A stretch of 39,701 nucleotides of DNA from Oscillospiraceae bacterium (GTDB lineage Bacteria > Bacillota > Clostridia > Christensenellales > Aristaeellaceae), in the NCBI GenBank assembly GCA_031286995.1, contig JAITTS010000094.1, positions 1 through 39,701 on the forward strand. The letters run 5' to 3'. The translations under genes and the position numbers were made by a program. Positions 5,538 through 39,701 of the stretch are shown one piece after another. Position 1 is the first letter of the stretch. Each line of letters begins with the position of its first letter. The notes under the pieces are model-generated. The model had not been told where the DNA came from and searched no databases. It saw nothing but the letters and a program-made list of their open reading frames with translations.

Positions 5538-6698
5538 ATGAGCCAGCCATGGGCGCGGGCCGCCGCCGCCGGCGCGGATAGGGAACGCATCGCCGCCACG
5601 CCGCACAGCTTTGGCGTGGATGTGTGGTTGCGCTTCGCCAAAAAGCCCACGGCCCTTGCGGGGCTGATCGCGGTGTTGCTGCTGCTGGCGTGCGCGCTGA
5701 TTGGGCCTTCGCTTTCCCCTTACAGCTACGATAAGCAGACCCTCAGCCTGGCGGGCGTTCCGCCCGTCTTCACGGCGGTGGTAGCTCCCGAGGCGGGGCG
5801 CTATTTCTACATTACCCCCAACCAAAAGATCATTGAGGTGGATGACCAAGGCCGTCTGCTGCGCCAGTTGCCCATGGCGCAGGATCTGTTTATGGAAAAG
5901 CGCGTCTCCTACCGCTGCGGGCCGCAGGATGAGGGGCTGGTGTACCTGGATTACAGCGCGGCCAAGCCCGCGCTGCTGGATGAGGCGGGCAACCCGCTGG
6001 CAGCCACGCGCGTGCTGTGGAATCGCACTTACCTGCTGGGCACGGATCACCTGGGGCGGGATATTTTAACCCGTCTGATGTACGGGGCGCAGATTTCGCT
6101 GATGGTGGCTTTTATTGCCGCGGCGGTCAACATGGTGATCGGTACGCTCTATGGCGGCATCGCCGGGTATCTTGGGGGCCGGGTGGATGCGATCATGATG
6201 CGCGTGGTGGATATCATCAGCACCATTCCCCTGACGCTCTATGTCATCCTCATCAAGGTGTGTCTGGCCGGTGGCCTGGTGGGCATCATTGTGGCGCTAT
6301 CCAGCGTCTATTGGGTGGATATGGCCCGGGTGGTGCGCGGCCAGGTGCTGAGTTTGAAGCAGCAAGAGTTTGTGCTGGCGGCGCGCACCATCGGCTCCGG
6401 CACGCGCCGCATCCTGCTCACCCACCTCATCCCCAACGCAATGGGCTCCATCCTGGTCACGGCCACCATGCTCATCCCCAGCGCTATCTTCATGGAGGCG
6501 TTTATGAGCTTTATCGGCATCGGCATCGCGCCGCCCATGGCCAGCCTGGGCACCATGTGCAACGACGCTACCGAAGCGCTGCGATCCAGCCCCTACCAGC
6601 TTTTCTTGCCCGCGCTGATCATCTGCCTGATCATGTTCGCCTTCAACTTTGTGGGGGACGGCCTGCGCGACAGCCTCGACCCTCAATTGAAACGTTAG
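5538..6698 (+). CDS. oppC: Oligopeptide ABC transporter permease OppC, with enlarged external loop
   Basis: The second permease of the peptide importer, 386 residues, about 80 more than the usual 300. Membrane segment 1 is at about 40-60. The family signature GTDHLGRDIL is at 168-177 and normally follows soon after segment 1. Here about 105 residues (60-165) lie between, with a beta-rich, soluble-looking sequence (GRYFYITPNQKIIEVDDQGR). This loop would be outside the cell, next to OppA. The remaining segments and the coupling motif (EFVLAARTIGSGTRRILLTH) are normal. Some Firmicute OppC proteins carry such a loop; its role is not known to me. It starts at ATG behind GGGGAGG. oppD begins 14 nt after its stop. 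Confidence 0.93.
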   Translation: MSQPWARAAAAGADRERIAATPHSFGVDVWLRFAKKPTALAGLIAVLLLLACALIGPSLSPYSYDKQTLSLAGVPPVFTAVVAPEAGRYFYITPNQKIIEVDDQGRLLRQLPMAQDLFMEKRVSYRCGPQDEGLVYLDYSAAKPALLDEAGNPLAATRVLWNRTYLLGTDHLGRDILTRLMYGAQISLMVAFIAAAVNMVIGTLYGGIAGYLGGRVDAIMMRVVDIISTIPLTLYVILIKVCLAGGLVGIIVALSSVYWVDMARVVRGQVLSLKQQEFVLAARTIGSGTRRILLTHLIPNAMGSILVTATMLIPSAIFMEAFMSFIGIGIAPPMASLGTMCNDATEALRSSPYQLFLPALIICLIMFAFNFVGDGLRDSLDPQLKR

Positions 6699-33897: not shown

Positions 33898-35664
33898 ATG
33901 ACCACCATTGACGCCTGGGTCTTTGCGCTGGTGCTCTGCGCCTGCCTGGCGCTGGCCTTTCATCCCCGCGCGCGGGCGTATCTAAACGGCATATCTTGGC
34001 TGCGTTGCCTTGGGGATGGATGCGTGCGGATTTTGGATCGCGCCTATTGGCCGCTGTTCGCTCTTGCCATGGCGGCGGGTGTGCTGTTGCGGGTGTGGCG
34101 CTTCCCCGAACTGCCCCAGGGGCTCTACCACGACGAGGCCATGACAGCCGCCCAGGCCATATCCCTGCTGCGCAACGGCACGGATATGTACGGCGCCTCC
34201 TGGCCGCTGCACCTGGAGACCTGGAAGTACGGCCAGCAGAGCGCGCTGCTGGCCTACATGCAGGTGCCGGTGTTCGCGTTGTTTGGCGTATCGCGCCTTA
34301 CGTTGCGTCTGCCCATTCTCGTGCTCAGCGTGATCGCGCTGCCCGTGCTGTGGCATCTGGCCCGCCGCGTGCTGGGCCGGGGCTACGCCCTGCTGGCGCT
34401 GTGGATGCTGGCCATATGTCCTTGGCAGGTGGTGCAGAGCCGTTGGGCGCTGGATTGCAATACCATGCCCCACATGCTGCTGTTTTCCGTATACTTTCTG
34501 CACCTGGGCCTGGATAAGCGGCCCTTTCTCTACCTATCCATGGTTTTTTTCGGCTTGACGCTCTACGCCTACGGTGTGGCGCTGTTCGCCGTACCGGTGC
34601 TGTTGCTGTGCGCCTGCGCATACTTGCTGCGCAGGCGCTTGGTGCGCTGGGGCGAGGTATGTATTTGCCTGGCGGTGTTTTTGGCTGTGGGCGGACCCTT
34701 TTTGCTCACCATGGCCATCAATGCCTTCGGCTGGCCCACCGTGCACCTTGGGCCCTTTACGCTACAAAATTTCCCCAAGACCCAGCGCGCCAACGACATG
34801 CTGCTCTACAGCCCGGATTTTTACAAGCAGTTTGTGTGGAATCTGTACTACTGGTTGATGAGCACCCTGGGCCAGAACGAGGGCGATACCATCGCCGCCT
34901 ACTTTGCCAGCCGCACGCTCTACCCCTTCTCCGTACCGGTCATCCTGGCGGGGGTGTACATGCTGTGGCGGCAAAAAAGGCGGATTGACACCTGCGCCCA
35001 TCTCCGGGAGAGCATCGGTAAAAACGGATCTCCTGCGCCCGGGGGGGAAGCCCTCATCCTGTTCTGGATTGGCGCCATGGCCTTCTGCGGCATTTTGACC
35101 AACTACACCACCAGCCAGCGCTCCAACGCCATCTTCTATCCTTTGCTGCTGGCCATGTGCTATGCGCTGTACCAAGCGGTGCGGCGGGTGCGCGCCGCCA
35201 TCCCAGTGGTGGCGCTGGTGTATGCCCTGGGCCTGACGGTGTTTGTTCACGGCTACTTTGCCGATGCCAGCTACATCGCCCGCACCGGTGCGGTGATGAA
35301 CGCGGATCTGTACGGCGCGCTGGCGGATGTAAGGGATATGGATTGTGACCGCTACTATATCTACACCAGCAATACAGACCCGGAGGTGACCTTGGGCGTA
35401 GAGGTGGTGGCCATGGTAGCCCACGAACTGGATGGCCGCCAGTGGGCGGATGAGACGATGGTACAGAATCACCTGGGGGAGGATGTGGATTACTACACCA
35501 ACCGGTACGAGTACACCGCCTTTCAGGATTTCGAGCCTGATCCCATGGAGCCCGCGGCCTACGTGATCCGGCAAGAGGACAAGCGCCTGTTTGACCCGGA
35601 AGAATACATCGTGCGCGATTTCGGGCTATACGCTTCGGCGTACCCCCGTTATTGGGCTGAGTAA
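33898..35664 (+). CDS. Membrane glycosyltransferase-like protein, GT-C/ArnT-PMT type
   Basis: A 588-residue polytopic membrane protein with about 10-12 segments. GAGGTG precedes the ATG. After the first segments, GLYHDEAMTAAQAISLLRNG contains the acidic motif (His-Asp79-Glu80) that in ArnT/PMT-type GT-C enzymes sits in the first external loop and acts at the active site. LLAYMQVPVFALFGVSRLTL and then RLPILVLSVIALPVLWHLAR are also typical. The C-terminal ~170 residues form an external soluble domain with many Tyr and acidic residues (DRYYIYTSNTDPEVTLGVEV). It probably moves a lipid-linked sugar to a surface acceptor; donor and acceptor are unknown. The next gene is a second, related protein with a 12-nt gap. 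Confidence 0.82.
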   Translation: MTTIDAWVFALVLCACLALAFHPRARAYLNGISWLRCLGDGCVRILDRAYWPLFALAMAAGVLLRVWRFPELPQGLYHDEAMTAAQAISLLRNGTDMYGASWPLHLETWKYGQQSALLAYMQVPVFALFGVSRLTLRLPILVLSVIALPVLWHLARRVLGRGYALLALWMLAICPWQVVQSRWALDCNTMPHMLLFSVYFLHLGLDKRPFLYLSMVFFGLTLYAYGVALFAVPVLLLCACAYLLRRRLVRWGEVCICLAVFLAVGGPFLLTMAINAFGWPTVHLGPFTLQNFPKTQRANDMLLYSPDFYKQFVWNLYYWLMSTLGQNEGDTIAAYFASRTLYPFSVPVILAGVYMLWRQKRRIDTCAHLRESIGKNGSPAPGGEALILFWIGAMAFCGILTNYTTSQRSNAIFYPLLLAMCYALYQAVRRVRAAIPVVALVYALGLTVFVHGYFADASYIARTGAVMNADLYGALADVRDMDCDRYYIYTSNTDPEVTLGVEVVAMVAHELDGRQWADETMVQNHLGEDVDYYTNRYEYTAFQDFEPDPMEPAAYVIRQEDKRLFDPEEYIVRDFGLYASAYPRYWAE

Positions 35665-35676
35665 GGAGGGGCGCGC

Positions 35677-37491
35677 GTGTTGACGGCGTGGGGCTGGGCG
35701 GGCATGGCGCTGACAGCGGCGTTGTGTTGGTGGGCGGGCGCGCGCGGAGCCTGCCGCGGTATACCGGCAAAAATGGGCGGAGGGCTATCCTCGCCCAGGG
35801 AGCATCGAGAACCGCGCAACCTTTTGGGGGCACATGCCCGGCGCTTCGCTACGCGCACAGACATCATCCTGCTCGCGCTGGGTGCGCTGCTCATCCTGGC
35901 CCAGTGGGCGTATAGCTGGGGAGATGCGCTGCCCGAGGAGCTGTACACGGGCATGCAGGCGCGATCTCTGTGGCAAACCGGCAAGACGCTGGAGGGCACG
36001 GTTTGGCCTGCCCTGCTGCCGGGCTGGATAGGTGAAGGCGAAGGTTCGCTGCTGGCCGCGCTGGCCGCGCCGCTTGTGGGCCTGTTCGGCCTGCATACCT
36101 GGGCGGTGCGCCTGCCCTTGATGGCGCTGCAAATCGTCTGTGTGTTGGCCCTGTGGCATCTGCTGCGCGGGGCCTTCTCCCTGTGCGCTGCCCGCTGGGG
36201 CGCGCTGTTGTTGGCCGCCTGTCCCTGGACGCTGCTGCAGGCCCGCTGGGCGCTGAGCTGGTACCTTCTGCCCCACTTGCTGCTGCTGGCCACTTGGATG
36301 CTGTGCAAGCGCAGGCCTGGCTGGCTGCTGGGGGGTATGGTCACCCTGGGCCTGGCCCTGTACACGGGGGATGCGGCCTGGTATATCGTGCCGCTCTACG
36401 CGCTGTGGGCGCTGGCCGTGCCGGGTTGCCGCCGGGGCGTAAAGCCGCGCTGGCTGCTGGCCGGGGCCGCGGTATTTCTATTGCTGGCGCTGCCTGTGCT
36501 GGGCAGCCTCGGCCAAGACGCCCACGCCGGGGATTGGGTGGGCCTGCGCCCCAAACCCGTGACGAGCAATTACGGCCCCAGGGTGCCCGCCCAAGCAGGA
36601 TACGGTCTGCAAATGCTGCCCTTTTTGCGCGGCGACGCGCATGTAGCCACCCTGCACACAGATATCCTGAGCGCAGTGGATGGGCTGATCCGCCGCTCGG
36701 TGCTGCAGTATGCCGAAGACCCCGGCTACACCATGGCATACCTGCTGCCCGCCTATGGCACGATGCAGCTGTTTTCCGTGCCTCTGTTGCTGCTGGGGGC
36801 CTTGTGGGGGTTGGTACGGTTGCGCAAACGGATTGCCGCGGGCAAGGTGTCATGCGTCTGCGCAGAAGCGGCAGGTCAGGATGAAACCGAAACAAGAGAG
36901 GGTGCGCGCGGGGCGGTCTGCTGGCTGCTTGCGGGGTGGGGCATCGCCGCGCTGGTCTTTTTGCTGACCCATGTAGGCCTGCCCTTTAGCCACTATGCGG
37001 CGCTGTTCTATCCGGCCCTGATCCTCACGACGGGGGGTATCCTGTACGTGACGCGCCGGGTACGCTTCTCCCCCGTGCTGCTGGCGGCTCTGTACTTGGC
37101 GGGATTGGGCGCCTTTTTGGTCACAGCCTATGACCCCGCGCCCACGTTCCCCGGTTTGGATGAGGCGCTGGTCTGCGCAGCGCAATCCGGCATGCGCCGG
37201 GTGGCCGTCACCACACGCCTCTACCCCAATGACAACCCTGGCCTGGTAGCGGCGCTGAACGCCATGTGGGCCTTTGACCTGTCCCCGGCCTACGTGCGCG
37301 GCGAGGCGGCGTCGGCCGGCAGCCTGCCGTACGCGCAGCGCTTCGCCTGCCTCAGCTTTGCGGATACCCCTCCGCAGCCGTGGACGGATACGGCCTATGT
37401 GCTCTATGGCCCCGAGGCGGATCTGGCTGACCCGGATGCGTTTGCCTTTACTTATGCCGGAGATTTTGTGACCCTTTTGCCCCTGCCGTAA
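35677..37491 (+). CDS. Second membrane glycosyltransferase-like protein, GT-C type
   Basis: A 604-residue polytopic membrane protein, a divergent relative of the previous gene. AAGGAGG overlaps the preceding stop; the start is GTG 35677 (TTG 35680 is also possible). The region matching the His-Asp-Glu motif reads ALPEELYTGMQARSLWQTGK (Glu87-Glu88), so one acidic pair is kept but the His-Asp is not. LAAPLVGLFGLHTWAVRLPL and LLAACPWTLLQARWALSWYL parallel the partner. The first 60 residues hold an unusual positively charged stretch (SSPREHREPRNLLGAHARRF). It may pair with the partner or work on a different sugar. No convincing terminator was found after it. Confidence 0.75.
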   Translation: MLTAWGWAGMALTAALCWWAGARGACRGIPAKMGGGLSSPREHREPRNLLGAHARRFATRTDIILLALGALLILAQWAYSWGDALPEELYTGMQARSLWQTGKTLEGTVWPALLPGWIGEGEGSLLAALAAPLVGLFGLHTWAVRLPLMALQIVCVLALWHLLRGAFSLCAARWGALLLAACPWTLLQARWALSWYLLPHLLLLATWMLCKRRPGWLLGGMVTLGLALYTGDAAWYIVPLYALWALAVPGCRRGVKPRWLLAGAAVFLLLALPVLGSLGQDAHAGDWVGLRPKPVTSNYGPRVPAQAGYGLQMLPFLRGDAHVATLHTDILSAVDGLIRRSVLQYAEDPGYTMAYLLPAYGTMQLFSVPLLLLGALWGLVRLRKRIAAGKVSCVCAEAAGQDETETREGARGAVCWLLAGWGIAALVFLLTHVGLPFSHYAALFYPALILTTGGILYVTRRVRFSPVLLAALYLAGLGAFLVTAYDPAPTFPGLDEALVCAAQSGMRRVAVTTRLYPNDNPGLVAALNAMWAFDLSPAYVRGEAASAGSLPYAQRFACLSFADTPPQPWTDTAYVLYGPEADLADPDAFAFTYAGDFVTLLPLP

Positions 37492-37593
37492 TCACGCTTT
37501 GACGGGCATAAAAATGCAAAAAGACAAAACCGACCGCGGAGGCTTTGATTTTGCCTGTGTTCACGATGCACATAAAATTTTTAAGTGAATAGA

Positions 37594-39701
37594 ATGTATT
37601 GTTATGTGGATATCAATACGTGGGCTTGTAAGGCGGCAAATGGCGTGCATCATTCCATTTACAGGCAGTTCTCTTCCAGTGGAGGCGTTGCGGGCAACGC
37701 AATTACATACAGCGCCGCTGCGGTAGCAAACATCAGTTTGGCGGCCGCTTCTTATCTGGATACCTTTACCTACTTCCCGACAAAATATGTGGGCAATGGA
37801 CCGGGCTTCAACGGCAACATCAACAACATCCCCATCCCTGATGTCCCTATTGAGGTGGCGCAGATCAATCATCCCAGAGGTCTTTCCGCCGATTATCTCG
37901 GCAACTTGTACTTTGCTGATGAGTATAATGGTTCTGTGCGGGTCATCACCCCAAATGCGGCGGGGCAACTGGTGGTTCGCACCATTGTGGGTACCGGGGT
38001 AGAGGCGGGATCTGCCGAGCCCCCCAACGGCGTGCTGGCACAGGGGATTGAGCTTTATGAACCGATGGCGATTGATACTTCCGCCTTCTGCCGCTATGTT
38101 GTTTTTTTAAACACGGATAGCCACCTTGTGCAACTGCTGGATATGGAACACCCGGCAGGTTTTTATGAGCAGGATGTGTTTTACAGAGGTGCGCTGATCC
38201 ATGCGGCCGGCGACCCATACCTCGCCGGCCCTTGGCTGACCACGATCGCGGGCCAGTATGTGCTTGGATCCGCCGGCGCTTACTACGAACCGCCGGATCA
38301 TGATGCGCTGAAGGCGCGGTTCAATAACCCCCAGGGTGTCGCCATAACGGATGACGCCAACACCATCTATGTCGCTGATACGGAAAACAATGTCATACGC
38401 AAGCTCACAAGGAACGCGAACGGGCTATGGTCAATTGAGCGGCTTGCGGGCAGCCCTTCCGCCACGGCGGGATACGGCGGCAACGGCGGGCCCGCGCTGA
38501 ACGCGCTGCTGAACAATCCGGTTGGCATTGACCTGGATGCATCGGAGCGGAATTTGTACATCGCGGATATGAACAACCAGAGGATTCGCAAGATTGATCT
38601 GCAAACGGGCATTATCACGACGGTTGCCGGAAACGGCGGGATCGCGCCCAACCAGTTTACCAATGTGAACGACGGCACCACGGCGACGCTCGGCGCGCCT
38701 TTGAACCAGGTAGCCCTGTTCAAATTTCCAAGCGACGTCGCGCTGGATGTCAATGGCAACCTCTATGTGGCTGACATGGGCAACAACCGTATCCGCAAAA
38801 TCAGGGCTGATTTGGGTGAGATAGAGACCATCTACGGCAACGGAACGCCCGCGTTGATCCAGGCCCCCAGAGGCGTCGCTGTCAATTGGGCCGGCGAGGT
38901 GTTTGCGAGCGACACGGAGGGCGCGAAGATCTGGAGGCTTACACCCGACGGCCTCACGCCGGAAAACTATCCGCCGGCCCCGCCGTGCCGCGGAACGACG
39001 TCTGCCGAAACATCCGTGACGCTCCAAGCTGAAAAAACTGCCACCGGAAGGCCCTTGATGGCCGATCAATTCGTGTTTGGCGTGTTCGACATGAGCGGCA
39101 ATCTCATTGCAATTGCCTCTAATGATGGCTCTGGTAAGATCGTCTTCCCCGAGATTGTTTTTATGCAGCCGGGAACATTCGCCTACACCGTACGGGAAAT
39201 CTCACAGGAAGGGAATGGCTGGATAACGGATCCCACGGCTTACACAGCGATTGTCACGGTGACCCCAAACGGCGCAGGACAGTTGTCGGCAGATGTGCAG
39301 TACCAGGGCGGCGCGCCAATCTTTACAAACACGTACAAAGCGACCCCGACGGAGGTATCGCTGGCGGCCTCAAAGGCTGCCGTCGGCGCGCCCCTTCCGG
39401 GCGGGCGTTTCAGCTTTGGTTTGTTTGACGACAACGGCAATCTGCTTGCCAGCGCGGAAAACGATGCCAACGGCAATATCAGCTTTCCGCCGCTGTTCTT
39501 CACCGAGCCCGGTATGCATTCTTACACTGTCCGCGAGCTTTCGCCTTCCGGAGGAGGCTGGACGACGGACAGCACCGTATACCCCGTTACCATCACCGTG
39601 CTGGATAACGGTCTGGGACAGTTGGAGGCAACCGTCAACTATCCCGCCGGCAACCCCAGCTTCACGGATAACTTCAATTCCACCCCCACTTCCGATGTCA
39701 T
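37594..39701 (+). CDS. Partial NHL-repeat protein with pilin-type isopeptide domains (runs off the right edge; 5' end doubtful)
   Basis: The frame is open from after the stop at 37582-37584 to the edge; the first ATG is 37594, giving 702 visible residues. No ribosome binding site and no signal peptide are seen, unlike other secreted proteins here. About five to six NHL-type beta-propeller repeats occupy about 90-455 (for example LNNPVGIDLDASERNLYIAD and FPSDVALDVNGNLYVADMGN). Then come two domains like the Streptococcus Spy0128/FctA pilin isopeptide domain: domain 1 has Lys481, Glu535 (YTVREI) and Asn579 (FTNTY); domain 2 has Lys594, Glu648 (YTVREL) and Asp692 where Asn is usual (FTDNF). These suggest an extracellular, perhaps wall-anchored protein whose anchor lies outside the window. 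The true start may be lost or frameshifted. Confidence 0.75.
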   Translation, partial: MYCYVDINTWACKAANGVHHSIYRQFSSSGGVAGNAITYSAAAVANISLAAASYLDTFTYFPTKYVGNGPGFNGNINNIPIPDVPIEVAQINHPRGLSADYLGNLYFADEYNGSVRVITPNAAGQLVVRTIVGTGVEAGSAEPPNGVLAQGIELYEPMAIDTSAFCRYVVFLNTDSHLVQLLDMEHPAGFYEQDVFYRGALIHAAGDPYLAGPWLTTIAGQYVLGSAGAYYEPPDHDALKARFNNPQGVAITDDANTIYVADTENNVIRKLTRNANGLWSIERLAGSPSATAGYGGNGGPALNALLNNPVGIDLDASERNLYIADMNNQRIRKIDLQTGIITTVAGNGGIAPNQFTNVNDGTTATLGAPLNQVALFKFPSDVALDVNGNLYVADMGNNRIRKIRADLGEIETIYGNGTPALIQAPRGVAVNWAGEVFASDTEGAKIWRLTPDGLTPENYPPAPPCRGTTSAETSVTLQAEKTATGRPLMADQFVFGVFDMSGNLIAIASNDGSGKIVFPEIVFMQPGTFAYTVREISQEGNGWITDPTAYTAIVTVTPNGAGQLSADVQYQGGAPIFTNTYKATPTEVSLAASKAAVGAPLPGGRFSFGLFDDNGNLLASAENDANGNISFPPLFFTEPGMHSYTVRELSPSGGGWTTDSTVYPVTITVLDNGLGQLEATVNYPAGNPSFTDNFNSTPTSDV

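Follow-up and report, generated by a model that had tools for sequence, protein, structure and literature searches.

A leaderless NHL propeller and FctA stalk gene in Clostridia, probably of a spore-surface class with split isopeptide domains in relatives

Streptococcal FctA, FctB and T-antigen pilins (Spy0128 type, PF12892) share the domain family, the Lys-Glu-Asn/Asp triad and the stalk role of the proteins described here. They possess signal peptides and are built by sortase, whereas the leaderless class contains neither a leader nor LPxTG, has sigma-K-type promoters and Cys-rich ends, and is split in relatives. The spore appendage proteins P29a/b, GP85 and CRD of C. taeniosporum, also a member of the Clostridia, contain beta-sandwich (DUF11) repeats and have sigma-K promoters, and the consensus a/cACa/c-N16-CATA-N3-TA was applied to their genes (PMC5749712). 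DUF11 is common to these appendages and one relative in our study (L138), but their head and stalk domains are otherwise different and an isopeptide split is unreported there. Sporesilk, as cited in PMC12617251, has an autocatalytic intermolecular isopeptide bond in endospore fibres; its fold is given by that citing paper as an alpha-helical hairpin, whereas FctA is a beta-sandwich. The Sulfolobus thread Saci_0406 (PMC9715654) combines strand complementation with a proposed intermolecular isopeptide bond, but it is archaeal and Sec-secreted, with a type-I-pilin-like fold and an Asp-Asn bond. In SpyTag/SpyCatcher and related pairs, an isopeptide domain is split so that Lys and Asn/Asp lie on different chains. 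Those pairs are engineered, whereas the split in the relatives is natural, falls mid-domain (Pfam position about 52) and leaves Lys on the N-half. The appendages, sporesilk (in the account of the citing paper) and Sulfolobus threads are neighbours in mechanism, but are not described as a split FctA domain. Our literature search, with most subscription journals outside its coverage, found no report of NHL repeats in spore coats or of split FctA.

Domain architecture of the window gene

The window, i.e., the whole stretch of DNA analysed (39,701 nt), is the entire contig C71 of a 2.33-Mb MAG (191 contigs, 92% complete). The gene was found as an open reading frame of 705 codons at 37585–39699 (+), open at the contig end. 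Pfam assigned NHL repeats (6.8e-28) and two FctA/Spy0128-like domains (4.8e-32) to it; the PF12892 score was 111.7 bits against a curated cut-off of 22.1, both domains exceeded the cut-off, and the NCBIfam match was TIGR03786, the streptococcal pilin isopeptide repeat. The NHL beta-propeller head at 37750–38970 (+) was delimited by Pfam, AlphaFold, Foldseek and homologs that start here (YLDTF...), followed by FctA/Spy0128 isopeptide domain 1 at 39022–39339 (+) and domain 2 at 39367–39675 (+), both from Pfam. By alignment, the bond positions contained Lys484, Glu538 and Asn582 in domain 1 and Lys597, Glu651 and Asp695 in domain 2, the bonds themselves being predicted. Positions 39676–39701 (+) form the open 3' end at the contig edge, with no anchor or tail visible. 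The AlphaFold model (mean pLDDT 75) was ordered from residue 55–57 (YLDTF) and contained a propeller, then two beta-sandwich domains; its Foldseek matches were teneurin-like, NHLRC2, Thin and Pizza6 propellers. The original prediction of an NHL propeller with pilin isopeptide domains was borne out by Pfam, AlphaFold and Foldseek, and the domains, homologs and models support the proposed layout, in which self-crosslinked domains form a stalk that bears a head. A class-wide search found no NHL members other than the window gene. Directly 5' of the propeller gene, and in the same orientation, are two adjacent genes for PMT_2-type glycosyltransferase-like membrane proteins (33898–37491).

Leaderless relatives and the 5' end of the window copy

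The nearest homologs, L037, L038 and L039, were found in three other Clostridia MAGs with an identity of 59–70%. The best-segment identity to the window protein was 70% for L037 and 67% for L038 (both titled Oscillospiraceae), followed by 59% for L039 (titled Clostridiales). L037 and L038 contained GGAGG and ATG at the propeller with no leader, their starts reading GGAGGAACTACTT-ATG-CAC-GAC-TAT-CTC (MHDYLDTF) and GGAGGATAAAATC-ATG-AAC-GAT-TAT-CTT (MNDYLDTF), respectively. The start region of L039 read GGAGGCGATTCTC-ATC-AAC-AAC-TAC-CTC, with the same boundary at the propeller. No signal peptide was found in L037, L038 or L039. A signal peptide had been expected for the window protein; since the nearest homologs start at the propeller without one, the missing leader is a family trait and not decay, and a lost signal peptide was rejected. 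In L039 (5982–6006), ATC stands in place of the homologs' ATG. It follows a strong GGAGG by eight bases, has a sigma-K-type box upstream, and may be a non-standard start codon or an error in the sequence. A cluster of small secreted paralogs is located 3' of the NHL gene in L037 (7308–12344, −), with a signal peptide and a C-terminal anchor (...VVAAGAVMVSRRRK) and, in several paralogs, Thr-rich stretches.

In the genome of the window (G000), seven FctA domains were found, all in three leaderless genes: the window gene and its paralogs on contigs C98 (L035) and C30 (L036). L035 and L036 start with MTYLVNDQ/MTYNVHDQ behind a good Shine-Dalgarno (SD) sequence. Both contain a repeat-rich head resembling a beta-helix, without a Pfam match, and their C-terminal ends are ...FINRYCPPRGSR and ...FTNTYCQPCPPMRCHPCPPARHFR.

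Searches of relatives and regional retrieval showed that the FctA proteins of related bacteria fall into two classes. Classic signal peptides were typical of class A, in which LPxTG or C-terminal membrane anchors were frequent and the Cys content was 0.49 per 100 residues. Class B proteins lacked both a hydrophobic leader and an anchor, and their Cys content was 1.48 per 100 residues; L135b, a class B protein of 84 residues, contained 12 Cys. None of the leaderless relatives with a visible end had LPxTG, as first expected for sortase anchoring, or a C-terminal membrane anchor, and these chains terminated in Cys-rich tails or half domains. The absence of a signal peptide from the window protein, its homologs and both paralogs does not agree with a sortase pilin. 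It is very improbable that the window gene encodes an ordinary FctA stalk adhesin of growing cells, anchored by sortase, whose signal peptide was lost. Such stalks occur in the same bacterial family, but neither the nearest homologs nor the two paralogs have a leader or an anchor, and the promoter class differs. The window gene is instead a member of the leaderless FctA class, probably for the spore surface.

The 5' end of the window copy was found to be anomalous. An AT-rich gap at 37492–37584 (+), 3' of the glycosyltransferase-like gene, contained GGAGG at 37538 and CATAAAATT at 37571, neither suitably arranged for the propeller frame. The short frame after GGAGG 37538 (ending MHIKFLSE*) was rejected, as it is out of frame and not signal-like. 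The gap was followed by an in-frame extension of 55 codons at 37585–37749 (+), and no homolog was found for the first ~54–55 codons of the frame. The homologs' start position read GCC/GCT, no match to the sigma-K consensus was found upstream, and a strong SD was absent. Among the standard starts in the frame of the window gene, GTG 37645 was the best candidate and the only one to show notable SD pairing (weak SD AAGGCGG at 37630, eight bases 5' of the start, −6.6 kcal/mol). Among the family ATG start sites, six of the seven scored gave −8.9 to −12.6 kcal/mol, and only the downstream cistron L135b fell outside this range (−5.2 kcal/mol); the ATC site of L039 gave −14.4 kcal/mol. The codon signal was about nil in the extension (0.01 vs. 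0.27 at the propeller start), and AlphaFold gave no structure for it (pLDDT 27–37 across the first 50 residues). GC content fell from 63% (1–37491) to 47% (37492–37749) and then rose to 57%, the low-GC part being the intergenic gap and the orphan extension. The absence of a signal peptide and of a strong SD was as first described, and the change of base use after 37.49 kb, noted at the same time, is real but mild.

Decay, recombination or an assembly join had been proposed for this gene. The proposal does not apply to the missing leader, which is a family trait, but it stands for the 5' flank of the window copy, which may have been rearranged, may have decayed, or may reflect an assembly join or an unusual start. 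A rearranged, decayed or chimeric 5' end, with a non-coding open frame before 37750, fits the main family reading and falls a little short of even odds. The loss of the homologs' start codon, SD and promoter favours it, together with the GC dip and an extension that has no homolog, codon signal or structure, but the body is intact along 650 codons with a good codon signal, and neither a breakpoint signature nor a repeated segment was found; a repeat or insertion at 37480–37770 was rejected, as the genome contains no second copy. Translation of the extension from GTG 37645 or another weak start, giving an N-terminus unlike that of the homologs, seems rather unlikely. In its favour, no stop interrupts the frame as far back as 37585, coding is least unlikely in frame 0 and AAGGCGG precedes the GTG, but the weak pairing, the lack of a homolog and the low pLDDT speak against it.

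Sigma-K-type promoters of the leaderless class

Spore coat proteins normally lack a signal peptide, since the mother cell that surrounds the forespore makes them. Mother-cell production of the same kind would most simply explain why a surface-type protein has no leader. The upstream regions of the class B genes were scored against the consensus from PMC5749712, with a maximum score of 10. The paralog L036 (C30) contained the box CACG-N16-CATAGCGTA, followed by AACA-N16-CATATACTG in L038, AACC-N15-CATATAATA in L039, AACA-N16-CATAAAATA in L136, AACA-N16-CATATTATA in L137a and AACG-N15-CATATAATG in L131. The sigma-K-type boxes of class B genes were located 30–69 bases 5' of the start. Of the class B genes, 7 of 11 scored at least 9; among the 143 other genes of these contigs, 1 did so (P 7e-9). 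The CATANNNT[AG] box, whose T[AG] relaxation was post hoc, was found in 10 of 11 class B genes (10 of 12 once L130 was added) against 1 of 143 neighbouring genes, and in none of 11 class A genes, which encode signal-peptide FctA proteins. Six genes lay outside the set that prompted the relaxation, and five of them contained the box (P 6e-8). It was also present in all three class B genes that were later identified in other families (L217, L219 and L221), where the box of L221 is AACA-N16-CATATCATA; in this later set the class A gene L222, whose start is uncertain, matched as well.

The genome of the window contained SpoIIGA, SigE and SigG genes in order, plus SigK (300.9 bits, cut-off 298.65), and SigE was above the cut-off in all three homolog genomes. 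SpoIVA, present in 41 of 60 relatives, was not found in this 92% complete genome, which reflects either MAG incompleteness or a real gap. The best reading of the class B FctA proteins, judged from sequence, is that they are probably spore-surface proteins. The window copy itself counts against the spore reading, as it lacks a sigma-K box, a strong SD and a start codon. Phage or tailocin fibre proteins are also leaderless, and an integrase gene was found near L038. No phage structural genes were present at the inspected loci, however, and scans of IMG/VR yielded a single distant NHL relative (30%) and nothing related to split FctA; with sigma-K-type promoters indicating sporulation, a phage or tailocin origin is the least probable of the alternatives considered.

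Split FctA domains in relatives

The split isopeptide domain of the relatives is the most interesting part of the analysis. In these proteins the chain ends mid-FctA, just past a strand ending in ATN (Pfam position about 52): 1–9 residues past it in L037, L038, L135a, L136, L137a, L138 and L139, and after a tail of 50–57 residues in L132 and L133. The N-half carries the bond-forming Lys and the C-half carries Glu and Asn/Asp. L037 and L038 contained an N-half only, at the chain end, whereas L132, L133, L135a, L136, L137a, L138 and L139 contained the order C-half ... N-half, and L135b (MKCKCSKAPICFPPLCF...FVNCYCPKPCCKCK) and L137b contained a C-half only, with Cys-rich ends. The triad residues were conserved in the halves, the one exception seen being Gln in place of Lys in L133. 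Within one genome (G060), L037 and L136 end in an N-half and L135b is a C-half only, as separate proteins; in G062 the halves are on the separate proteins L137a and L137b. No half domains were found in G000, where all FctA domains found were whole and the end of the window gene is missing. L138 (4525–6693) is leaderless and contains SdrD_B and DUF11 domains with the same split FctA ending, recalling the DUF11 proteins of the C. taeniosporum appendages. The contig end at L136 (10100–10219) consists of long A-rich runs resembling assembly debris.

L135a ends with TAA TGA TAG and a separate ATG of L135b follows. No C-half was found downstream in any frame at L132, L037 or L139 (3 kb) or at L038 (1.2 kb), nor at L136, L133 or L138, where 170–690 bases were available. 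Sequencing errors or frameshifts were rejected as the source of the half domains for L135a/b, given the triple stop and separate ATG, and at the loci without a downstream C-half. In L137 (−), around 6583–6587, the N-half stop overlaps the C-half start (AAATGAGTAG; ATG AGT AGG), so translational coupling of the halves and their joining through a +1 shift are both possible.

The stand-alone C-half proteins aligned to the last C-half and Cys tail of the unsplit L217, L035, L036, L218 and L219. This relation by fusion or fission suggests that separate chains pair. Alternatively, the C-half/N-half arrangements could be circular permutants that close in cis, with no inter-chain assembly. Many linkers contain equal numbers of N-halves and C-halves, and in the AlphaFold model of L135a alone (pLDDT 86) the first domain is complete and strands B and C of the N-half are packed onto the C-half in cis. 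The Lys strand is unformed in that model, however; the N-only (L037, L038) and C-only (L135b, L137b) proteins have no cis partner, and the C-only proteins correspond to the tails of fused ones. Closure in cis appears to be a minority possibility, and the L135a model is neutral towards trans pairing. The arrangement in the relatives suggests a natural assembly in the style of tag and catcher. Whether it amounts to a tag/catcher spore kit in Clostridia is evenly balanced; such a kit would comprise exchangeable heads (NHL propeller, beta-helix) with a Lys half, locked covalently and without sortase onto linkers or Cys-rich bases with the Glu/Asn half.

Our preferred explanation, to which we give a probability of about 0.68, is an NHL head on an FctA stalk of a leaderless mother-cell spore class, which would be self-crosslinked and Cys-anchored and, in several relatives, joined in trans from halves. 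Class B genes would be expressed in the mother cell during sporulation under sigma-K, and the protein would be laid onto the developing spore from the mother-cell cytoplasm, so that no signal peptide is needed. Self-crosslinking of the FctA domains, from Lys to Asn/Asp with the participation of Glu, would make the stalk tough, and disulfides from a Cys-rich C-terminus, as in the C30 and C98 paralogs, may hold the base on the spore surface. In the split versions, head proteins ending in the Lys N-half would join in trans with Cys-rich bases or linkers bearing the Glu/Asn C-half, forming an intermolecular isopeptide bond. The lack of SpoIVA and of half domains in G000 and the cis packing in the L135a model count against this explanation.

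The window gene is not a broken adhesin in the sense first proposed, and an adhesin without a signal peptide need not mean a broken gene. If our explanation is true, a sortase-pilus domain of growing cells has been taken over, in leaderless form, for spore surfaces, and the split-isopeptide trick of SpyTag/SpyCatcher engineering exists in nature. The relatives would then be a source of new tag/catcher pairs, and uncultured Clostridia would possess a directly testable mechanism of covalent spore-surface assembly.
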